From Bullera alba (taxonomy: Eukaryota > Basidiomycota > Tremellomycetes > Tremellales > Bulleraceae), in the NCBI GenBank assembly GCA_001600095.1, contig BCIX01000001.1, positions 1,302,001 through 1,366,000 of the forward strand: a stretch of DNA of 64,000 nucleotides, read 5' to 3'. Below are positions 11,622 to 60,685 of this stretch, in pieces. The notes beneath the pieces are model-generated. The model had not been told where the DNA came from. It searched no databases and was given only the letters and a program-made list of their open reading frames with translations. The translations under genes and the position numbers were made by a program. Positions within the stretch are counted from its first letter, which is position 1, and every line of letters begins with the position of its first letter.

Positions 11622-11706
11622 GGTTTCTTAATTCAGGGGTAGAATGTCAGCTTAACAGTTCAATTGAACTCGCTGAATGTCGCCGGTTCGAAACCGGCAG
11701 AAATCA
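11622..11706 (+). tRNA. tRNA-Val(AAC) with 13-nt intron, copy 2
   Basis: Same cloverleaf as the copy at 9965-10049 (acceptor GGTTTCT/AGAAATC, anticodon AAC, T arm GCCGG/CCGGC, discriminator A). The only difference is T instead of C inside the intron (CAATTGAAC). The intron can fold as GTTC/GAAC. A TTTATATG sequence sits about 30 bases upstream, and TTTTT follows shortly after the 3' end. Confidence 0.93.
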
Positions 11707-14160: not shown

Positions 14161-14252
14161 GGGGATGTAGTTCAGTTGGTAGAACATTTCTTTAGCACTA
14201 GCTGGCTAAGAAATACTAGAAAAGGTCCAGCGTTCGATTCGCTGCTTCTCCA
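14161..14252 (+). tRNA. tRNA-Ala(AGC) with 19-nt intron
   Basis: Begins GGGGATGTAG like eukaryotic tRNA-Ala. D stem GTTC/GAAC, anticodon stem TTTCT/AGAAA, T arm CAGCG-TTCGATT-CGCTG, discriminator A. The 26-base anticodon loop reduces to 7 with anticodon AGC once 19 nt after position 37 are removed. The acceptor stem has one G-T pair and one T-T mismatch. A run of eight T follows directly as Pol III terminator. Confidence 0.9.
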
Positions 14253-57247: not shown

Positions 57248-58048
57248 GGGGGATGACGCATACGTGCGAGTAGCAAGTACACATATGTAACAACATGCAA
57301 GCATATTGGAGTGATATTGGCCCGGACTCCCCAGGAGCAGCGAGATGAGGATTGGACTGTGTTGCGGACCTGTGGTAGCTATAGGCCAGCGAGTCAGGGC
57401 GAGTAGCGAGTGCATGTGCTGACCAGTACAACGAAGGTAGTTAGAAGAGCAAGAAGGAGAAGATATCATCAAAATATCAGAGGGAGACAGCTGGTGCACC
57501 AAATCGATCAGCTTACAAGCTAGAAACCAAGGATATCTGATTGTTCTGGCGTGGTGAAGCTGTCTCGGAAGTCGAGGTGATCACAGATGCGCAGACAGGC
57601 GCAGACCCAAGCGCAAAGCTAAGGTGCCCCGCTCTCAACACGATAGGGTTGAATCCGTTTGATCCCGTCTGCGTCCTGCGAATGCCTAAATTCGCAAAAG
57701 CGAATGTGGCGATATTTCAGATTGTGGCGGCGGGGCGAAGACACCGTGGTAGTCTATCACCATAGACCAGTAGCCTGTTCCATCAATGACTCTACTGTAG
57801 AATGTATCGATGCGTGGACGAAGTTCCGCGATCCGGACGTGTGACAGACCGGAACATGCAAGGACGCGAGAACTAGAACAGTTTACAGCACTACTTCTGA
57901 TCAATATGCCAGGCCGGCGGGCCGAGGCAGGCAAGCCAACTATACCCGATCACGCGTTTGTGCCACATATACGGCGTTATCGACGCAGTTGATGGACTTT
58001 TGCTCCGCTACTACCGCTAAAACGTTAAATCTAAGAACAATTGCTTTC
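57248..58048. other. Intergenic, about 0.8 kb, upstream of U6
   Basis: No protein-like frame. The last 40 bases (TAAAACGTTAAATC near 58015-58030) are the AT-rich spot where a U6 TATA element would sit. Confidence 0.4.
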
Positions 58049-58096
58049 GGCCGCCCGCAAGGGCGCGCCATAAGATAAAATTGGAACATTACAGAG

Positions 58097-58147
58097 GTAC
58101 GTCTCAAACTTCAATCCACTGCGTCCCAGTGCTAACCCCAAGTGTAG
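58097..58147 (+). other. U6 intron 1, 51 nt, inside the ACAGAGA box
   Basis: Donor GTACGT, branch GTGCTAAC, acceptor GTGTAG. It interrupts ACAGAG|A, the U6 sequence that pairs with the 5' splice site. Confidence 0.93.
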
Positions 58148-58155
58148 AAGATTAG

Positions 58156-58208
58156 GTGTGTTGATATCCCGCCTATCCAACCCCTGCCTGTGCTAATGAT
58201 TACCTAAG
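58156..58208 (+). other. U6 intron 2, 53 nt, splitting the AGC triad
   Basis: Donor GTGTGT, branch GTGCTAAT, acceptor CCTAAG. It separates AG from C of the catalytic triad, eight bases after intron 1. Confidence 0.92.
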
Positions 58209-58309
58209 CATTGCCCCTGCATAAGGATGACAACTTCGAACAGAGAGGGCTCTTCGGAGCACAATATTTTTGTCTTTTTGGTCATCAGCAGCGATCGAGA
58301 AGCTCGAGA

Positions 58310-59145
58310 NNNNNNNNNNNNNNNNNNNNNNNNNNNNNNNNNNNNNNNNNNNNNNNNNNNNNNNNNNNNNNNNNNNNNNNNNNNNNNNNNNNNNNNNNNN
58401 NNNNNNNNNNNNNNNNNNNNNNNNNNNNNNNNNNNNNNNNNNNNNNNNNNNNNNNNNNNNNNNNNNNNNNNNNNNNNNNNNNNNNNNNNNNNNNNNNNNN
58501 NNNNNNNNNNNNNNNNNNNNNNNNNNNNNNNNNNNNNNNNNNNNNNNNNNNNNNNNNNNNNNNNNNNNNNNNNNNNNNNNNNNNNNNNNNNNNNNNNNNN
58601 NNNNNNNNNNNNNNNNNNNNNNNNNNNNNNNNNNNNNNNNNNNNNNNNNNNNNNNNNNNNNNNNNNNNNNNNNNNNNNNNNNNNNNNNNNNNNNNNNNNN
58701 NNNNNNNNNNNNNNNNNNNNNNNNNNNNNNNNNNNNNNNNNNNNNNNNNNNNNNNNNNNNNNNNNNNNNNNNNNNNNNNNNNNNNNNNNNNNNNNNNNNN
58801 NNNNNNNNNNNNNNNNNNNNNNNNNNNNNNNNNNNNNNNNNNNNNNNNNNNNNNNNNNNNNNNNNNNNNNNNNNNNNNNNNNNNNNNNNNNNNNNNNNNN
58901 NNNNNNNNNNNNNNNNNNNNNNNNNNNNNNNNNNNNNNNNNNNNNNNNNNNNNNNNNNNNNNNNNNNNNNNNNNNNNNNNNNNNNNNNNNNNNNNNNNNN
59001 NNNNNNNNNNNNNNNNNNNNNNNNNNNNNNNNNNNNNNNNNNNNNNNNNNNNNNNNNNNNNNNNNNNNNNNNNNNNNNNNNNNNNNNNNNNNNNNNNNNN
59101 NNNNNNNNNNNNNNNNNNNNNNNNNNNNNNNNNNNNNNNNNNNNN
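58310..59145. other. Assembly gap (836 N)
   Basis: Unknown bases between the U6 gene and SF3B4. The odd length suggests a size-estimated scaffold gap. A tandem repeat on the right side may explain it. Open frames written through the N run are artefacts. Confidence 0.99.
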
Positions 59146-59413: not shown

Positions 59414-60685
59414 TCAGAAGCCCATTCTGATAGGAGGCGGTGGCGGTCCACCCTGCGGAGGCTGTTGCTGCTGCTGCTGAGGTTGACCATATTGCGGCTG
59501 ACCATAACCCGGATAGCCATTGGCAACGGGGAACCCGGCAGGTGGTGCGGGAGGGTAACCTTGTTGGTAGCCATTAGGCTGCGGTGCGCCGTAGTCAGGG
59601 TATCCTTGGGGAGGGTAACCTTGCTGAGGAGGCTGGTACACCGGCATGCCAGGAGGAGGAGGGGGTGGAGCGGCTTGGGGAGCATAGGAGGCTTGTGGAG
59701 GTGCAGGGGCGGATGATTGGGCGGCGAGAGCTCCGGCGTATTGACCTATGTTGGATCAGCCAAAAGACAAGGAGCGGGGGCGATGAAGCCACCTACCCTG
59801 ATACGTTGCTGGCATGCCGCCCACTCCTGGAAGCACAGAGTTTTTCCTGCGCACAGTCGTCAGCCGCTTGCTCGATCACGGATCACAGCTCGCTCACTTT
59901 GCCTGGGCCGCCAATAACCTCTCCGCCTGAGTTCCATGCCTCTCGCCCTTTCCGTCCTTCTTGAACGCATATTGCACCGTTATCTGCTTTCCACCGAGGA
60001 ACTGTCCGTTCATATTTTCCACAGCCATGTCTGCGGCCTCAAAATCGTGGTACGAGACGAACCCATAACCCTTTGAATCGCCTGTCGTGGGATCTCGGGC
60101 AATCTAAGAAACGATCAGCACTGCATGCAGCTGTATGCTCACCTTTGGCTGCTCAGCTATCGCACCGAACGTGCTAAATGTGTCATACAGCGCGTTCTCG
60201 TCGACCATCTCGTCCAATGTGCCAATGAAGAGGTTCGCGCCGACGTCTAATGTCTTCTTGTCGTAACTAGCCTTGTTGACTCTTATTGGCTTTCCGTACA
60301 GCTTTATCTGGTTCATGATCTTGCAGGCGTACTCGGCATCGTCTTCCGCCAGGAACTCGCAGAACCCGAAACCCTGGTGAGCCATCGAGATACGATCTTT
60401 TGGTAGAAAGACATTCGCTGCGACGGTCGTGAGCCGTGATCTGACATTGGACCGAAATGGTAGACTTACACACTGGGCCTGCTTGCCTATAGCTTGATCA
60501 GCCTCATCCTCAATTACGCACAAGTGACTCACAACATCAGCTCCCACACGAGCGCATCGGTACACCGTTCATCTAGGTTTCCCTAAATGATTGGCATCAG
60601 CGATGCGACATTGTCGTGTCAAATGAGGCCTCACCAGATACACCGTTGCCTCTTGGTTCCTATCCTGCTCTGCCTTGTTCTGCAT
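59414..60685 (-). CDS. HSH49: SF3b subunit SF3B4/Hsh49
   Basis: U2 snRNP SF3b protein with two RRMs that contacts pre-mRNA upstream of the branch site. The start [20 protein letters not shown] gives RNP2 of RRM1 (VYLGNLDERC). A short exon supplies LQAGPV, then [21 protein letters not shown] (RNP1). The stretch [13 protein letters not shown] is a family hallmark. RRM2 has [13 protein letters not shown] and [11 protein letters not shown]. The C-terminal tail is Pro/Gln/Gly/Tyr-rich ([17 protein letters not shown]), as in other SF3B4 proteins. Introns are short GT-AG. It lies on the far side of the gap from the U6 gene. Confidence 0.94.

Follow-up and report, generated by a model that had tools for sequence, protein, structure and literature searches.

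The window analysed here, a stretch of 64,000 nucleotides from Bullera alba, carries at 58049-58271 on the forward strand what its sequence confirms as a U6 snRNA gene, laid out in three exons and two GT-AG introns. The initial annotation had proposed a U6 split by two introns at 58049..58270, and we located the exons where it had placed them, together with every donor, branch and acceptor signal that it had named (GTACGT with GTAG, and GTGTGT with AAG).

Exon 1 (58049..58096, +, 48 nt) extends from the 5' stem-loop to ACAGAG, where it ends in ATTACAGAG. The stem-loop is GC-rich and is predicted to fold as GGCCGCCC GCAA GGGCGCGCC; the exact 5' end of the RNA presumably lies at 58049. Intron 1 (58097..58147, +, 51 nt) has the donor GTACGT, the branch site GTGCTAAC and the acceptor TGTAG, ending in GTGCTAACCCCAAGTGTAG. 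It is followed by an exon of 8 nt, AAGATTAG (58148..58155, +), which consists of the U6 bases absent between exons 1 and 3 and is the same as in the intronless U6 described below. Intron 2 (58156..58208, +, 53 nt) has the donor GTGTGT, the branch site GTGCTAAT and the acceptor CTAAG, ending in GTGCTAATGATTACCTAAG. Exon 3 (58209..58266, +, about 58-63 nt) starts with CATTGCCCCTGCATAAGGATGACA and leads into T5 at 58267-58271. It contains the rest of U4/U6 stem I, the region of U4/U6 stem II and of the internal stem-loop, the strand CAGAGAGGG of U2/U6 helix II, and a 3' UUCG hairpin. At 58240-58260, the 3' domain has another ACAGAGAG, which is the strand of U2 helix II, as well as the UUCG hairpin GCUCUUCGGAGC, and part of this hairpin is an insertion relative to the Rfam U6 consensus.

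Intron 1 interrupts the ACAGAGA box before its last base (ACAGAG^A), and intron 2 interrupts the AGC triad (AG^C). Once both are removed, the ACAGAGA box, the AGC triad and the internal stem-loop CCCCUGCAUAAGGAUGACA follow each other in order. If both were taken out as a single intron of 112 nt, AAGAUUAG would be lost and the U6 spoiled.

The next gene downstream, at 59414-60568 on the reverse strand, encodes an RRM protein and is convergent with U6. This protein is most like the splicing factor SF3B4/Hsh49 (60104-60568 against chain 4 of PDB 5z56, E 5e-40), so that the U6 gene lies tail to tail with the gene of a spliceosomal protein.

Identity of the spliced RNA and its pairing partners

Scanning positions 57900-58309 with cmscan and the Rfam U6 model (RF00026), using an E-value threshold, gave two matches on the same strand and in collinear order. 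Exon 3 matched at 58205-58271 (27.5 bits, E 6e-5, about model positions 50-105) and exon 1 at 58050-58096 (16.1 bits, E 0.19, model positions 1-44), the latter match stopping exactly at ACAGAG. Both scores are below the 44-bit cut-off of the family, each piece being scored singly, and cmscan of the whole window at the gathering threshold left U6 unreported, each U6 piece being short.

A contiguous U6 was available for comparison. A 19-mer pattern matched 8 loci in the genome contig collection, one of which (L012) is a real U6, and had no match in the viral contig collection. The L012 gene (2255-2359) is complete, intronless and scores 104.9 bits; its contig is labelled as a Verrucomicrobiaceae MAG and is probably a eukaryotic contamination. 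The 54-nt core obtained by splicing the B. alba gene is identical to it at 48 positions.

The spliced RNA could also pair with the U2 and U4 of the same genome, a potential that we read from the sequences. Exon 3 and U2 are predicted to form a helix II of 9 bp between CAGAGAGGG of U6 and UCCUCUCUG of U2. Both strands depart from the Rfam consensus (cgaGAaa in U6, CUUCucg in U2) and remain complementary. Two pairs are changed on both sides when read in pairing register; this was judged by inspection, because the Rfam alignment places a one-base deletion in U2 at this point. Among the U2 and U4 pairings, the shuffle control covers helix II alone: 39 of 2000 shuffles reached its energy. This control is rather weak, and the weight of helix II therefore rests on its expected position. 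The predicted U4/U6 stem I has 8 bp (GAUUAGCA with UGCUGGUU) and extends across exons 2 and 3, with -7.6 kcal/mol in the spliced RNA against -2.6 and -3.8 for its unspliced halves. U4/U6 stem II is predicted as well, and so is a U2/U6 helix I of 5 bp (UUAGC with GCUAA, -5.3 kcal/mol). That the RNA is predicted to pair with U2 and U4 of its own genome speaks against a pseudogene.

Signals and spacing of the two introns

We compared the two introns with candidate introns of this genome, taken as GTRNGT...CTRAY...AG spans of 40-75 nt in 262,841 sampled bases. There were 344 of these, against 92 when the branch motif was reversed; like the stricter sets of 153 and 190, they rest on motifs rather than on annotation, and roughly one in four of the 344 would arise by chance. 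Their lengths peak around 49-56 nt (n=344), a range that includes the U6 introns with their 51 and 53 nt. The commonest distance from the branch C to the 3' end is 16 nt (51 of 344), which is the distance in both U6 introns; in this count, however, the 3' end was set at the first AG 2 nt or more past the branch motif, which would give intron 1 a distance of 11 nt (13 of 344). The reason is an earlier AAG in intron 1, 7 nt after the branch A, that the proposed acceptor skips.

The individual signals are less typical. The donor GTACGT is modestly enriched among the candidates (18 versus 7 in the control) and GTGTGT hardly at all (12 versus 8). Branch motifs CTAAC and CTAAT make up a minority (55 of 344), and the AAG acceptor of intron 2 ends 39 of the 344 candidates and 18 of the 92 controls. 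In both introns, the GT at the donor, the branch motif, the AG at the acceptor, the length and the spacing agree with the spliceosomal (U2-type) introns of this genome, the donors and branch sites being minority variants. The combination is rare: among 523,162 sampled positions, 6 (about 1.1e-5) have a GTRNGT donor together with an AG ending 51 nt on and a CTRAY whose start lies 16 nt upstream of this AG end, and some of the 6 are probably real introns. If independent, two such sets of signals at junctions fixed by U6 homology would be expected by chance with a probability of about 1e-10. The possibility that one of the two introns is a copy of the other was rejected, since 2000 random pairings of candidate introns reached their global alignment score of 2.0 in 1331 cases.

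Transcription signals of U6 and of U2, U4 and U5

The U6 gene ends in a Pol III-type terminator (58267..58279, +), TTTTTGTCTTTTT followed by GG. Upstream of the T5 at 58267, T runs in the precursor do not exceed 2, and the same holds for each intron; this is weak evidence, because 110 of 190 control introns also lack such runs. We examined the 3' flanks of the 18 best-scoring of 27 listed tRNA genes, including two in the window and keeping one (L066) that has no recognisable B box. In each of them the first 65 nt of the flank include a run of T5 or longer, and in 13 of the 18 the flank contains T5-G-S-Y, that is T5-G-(G/C)-(C/T). The background per 400,000 strand-bases is 115 runs of T5 or longer and 20 T5-G-S-Y sites. 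Since U6 has this tRNA-type T5-G-S-Y terminator, its sequence makes transcription by Pol III likely. The two tRNA genes of the window lie at 11622-11706 and 14161-14252, the latter containing an intron-like insert; neither was detected by ARAGORN when run for bacteria, and cmscan of the whole window listed 14161-14252 alone.

Other promoter signals are less clear. Between 57950 and 58309 there is no clear match to a B box, the best score being equalled in 110 of 299 random stretches, and a B box inside intron 1, where one is reported for Schizosaccharomyces pombe, is not significant either. A downstream promoter element would be unreadable, because 836 N occupy 58310-59145, directly after the gene. 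Upstream, at about -88, lies a putative sequence element, TGCCACATATACGGCGTTATCG (57961..57982, +), that is partly common to the U2 and U4 genes. It agrees with the upstream region of U2 in 16 of 22 positions at -97, where at least 15 would be expected 0.01 times per 300 nt on both strands. Its best ungapped agreement with U4, 13 of 22 at -89, is at chance level (0.38 expected). In gapped alignments of 150 nt of upstream sequence, the U6/U4 score was equalled by none of 500 random genomic stretches, U6/U2 by 3 of 500 (in a different register) and U2/U4 by 17 of 500. The region upstream of U5 has no clear match to the element: 211, 100 and 500 of 500 random stretches were as good against U6, U2 and U4, respectively. 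These comparisons are consistent with TGCCACATATACGGCGTTATCG being a possible snRNA promoter element common to U6, U2 and U4.

In fungi, U2, U4 and U5 are normally Pol II genes. In B. alba, T5-G-S-Y starts 15-26 nt past the Rfam end of each of the three: U4 (L002, 1632-1700), U2 (L003, 3' flank on the reverse strand) and U5 (L006, 1618-1680). In 30-nt stretches of non-ORF DNA, T5 or longer is expected in 0.9% and T5-G-S-Y in 0.15% of cases. The motif was first spotted by eye on U2, U4, U5 and U6, with several variants tried, and then tested on the tRNA genes; its rates on the snRNA genes are therefore after the fact, and the tRNA test is independent of that choice. The three genes have no T5 inside them or in the 300 nt upstream, and U2 and U5 contain one T4 each within the gene. 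Their Sm sites, chosen by eye from the Rfam alignments and without a control, are AAUUUCUGG in U4, AAAUUUCUUCC in U5 and AGAAUCUUUCC in U2, where a C breaks the U run of the Rfam consensus AUUUUU. In 140 kb of sampled sequence a single C/D snoRNA was detected, and the 100 nt on its 3' side contain no T5. We raise as a tentative, by no means remote, possibility that U2, U4 and U5 are all Pol III genes together with the intron-split U6, their Sm U runs being broken as if against termination. If so, the U6 precursor would belong to a set of Pol III snRNAs and be the only one of the four to need the spliceosome. This side result may be newer than the U6 introns themselves.

U6 copies in the assembly and the making of U6

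A search of the genome for an intronless U6 was a natural check on the locus. The assembly has 19,408,104 bases (19.4 Mb, 54% GC) in 7 contigs, one of them of 8.0 Mb. The Rfam model was run against it at two thresholds, E 0.001 and E 10, each run scoring the best 47 of 845 candidates. We also used a 21-mer (3 mismatches allowed) and a 19-mer (2 mismatches) as patterns and, as DNA queries, the spliced sequence of 114 nt and the locus of 280 nt; these searches, too, score the best candidates. Neither a second nor an intronless U6 was found by the model (among those best 47 candidates), the patterns or the DNA searches of this assembly, which has gaps, and the 280-nt search found no copy of the locus or of its introns elsewhere in it. 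A match to the 21-mer with 3 mismatches (C1:5086014) was rejected, having no downstream U6 core and no match to Rfam.

The assembly is good, yet it has gaps and missing ends. Reading the sequence of the 14 contig ends showed telomere repeats, TTAGAGG(G), within the outermost 70 bases at 5 ends (a scripted count of TTAGGGG gave 0), and N occur within 5 of the 14 end stretches. The repeats at these ends (L041, L045, L046, L051, L052) are a mix of TTAGAGG and TTAGAGGG, and not TTAGGG. U2, U4 and U5 are each found once and unsplit. U1 was not found in the genome by Rfam at E 1; a pattern for its 5' end had 2 matches (1 in the control), neither of which matched the Rfam U1 at E 0.1. U1 may be divergent, split or absent from the assembly.

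These gaps are what could favour a different reading of the locus, namely that it is a decayed or unused copy and that the real, intronless U6 is missing from the assembly, which shows telomere repeats at 5 of 14 contig ends and has N in 5 of the 14 end stretches and 836 N right beside the gene. We consider this very unlikely. The exons retain the core motifs, at 48 of 54 identical positions with the L012 U6, and are predicted to pair with U2 and U4 of the same genome. Against decay also stand the T5G terminator, which is that of the tRNA genes, and the signals retained by both introns at the exact U6 junctions; and the same assembly yielded U2, U4 and U5, each once. That the insertions are tolerated or handled without the spliceosome, for example by a fragmented U6 acting in trans, is more improbable still: nothing supports it directly beyond an AGC that can also be read at the border of intron 2, which ends in AG, and exon 3, whereas both introns have GT, branch site and AG at genome-typical spacing, the 8-nt exon 2 could hardly act alone, and stem I and the ACAGAGA box stay broken unless spliced.

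The reading that we hold to be very probable is that this is a functional and apparently single-copy U6 gene, whose Pol III precursor is spliced twice into mature U6. Pol III would make a precursor of about 220 nt, stopping at the T5G (58267). By intron definition, the spliceosome would then excise the two mRNA-type introns (51 and 53 nt) and keep the 8-nt middle exon, and the mature U6 would measure about 115 nt. Neither intron could stay, because ACAGAG^A and AG^C are interrupted and stem I is continuous only in the spliced RNA. Since the spliceosome contains U6 as a core component, mature U6 would be needed to make new U6. We infer this loop, like the transcription and the splicing it builds on, from the structure of the gene. 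The initial annotation had stated outright that the cell needs mature U6 to make U6; the absence of a second copy from our searches agrees with this, and the statement holds only if the gaps hide none. A core RNA of the splicing machinery that must itself be spliced in order to mature would form a closed loop, in which the level of U6 sets the rate at which U6 is produced. As a consequence, lost U6 could not be restored from the gene alone.

The positions of the introns suggest how they may have arisen. An origin of U6 introns by reverse splicing or mis-splicing is an old published idea, and the two introns probably inserted in this way into U6 while it was in the active site. Human U6 numbering places intron 1 after G46 and before A47, the two final bases of ACAGAGA; intron 2 separates G54 from C55 within the AGC triad. 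According to published work on the catalytic triplex, these bases of ACAGAGA and AGC are in contact across adjoining layers. Cuts separated by eight bases of sequence would thus come together at the active site, as expected if reverse splicing had taken place within an active spliceosome. Insertion by reverse splicing would also fit the borders, with an AG at the end of the exon and an AG at the end of the intron.

Introns of the mRNA type in U6 are known from fission yeast and from Rhodosporidium/Rhodotorula. The initial annotation called them rare and known from fission yeast and a few basidiomycete yeasts; this understates the survey of fungal U6 by Canzler, Stadler and Hertel (RNA Biology, 2016), which reportedly found spliceosomal introns at many positions along U6, thought to be independent insertions. 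The U6 of S. pombe also has an mRNA-type intron of about 50 nt in its conserved centre and is a Pol III gene. It has one intron and B. alba two, and its intron carries a reported B box that has no clear counterpart in B. alba. Rhodosporidium/Rhodotorula too are basidiomycete yeasts with more than one mRNA-type intron in U6, near the catalytic motifs. An intron-split U6 is thus already known in fungi, and in B. alba both cuts are inside the two most important motifs of the molecule.
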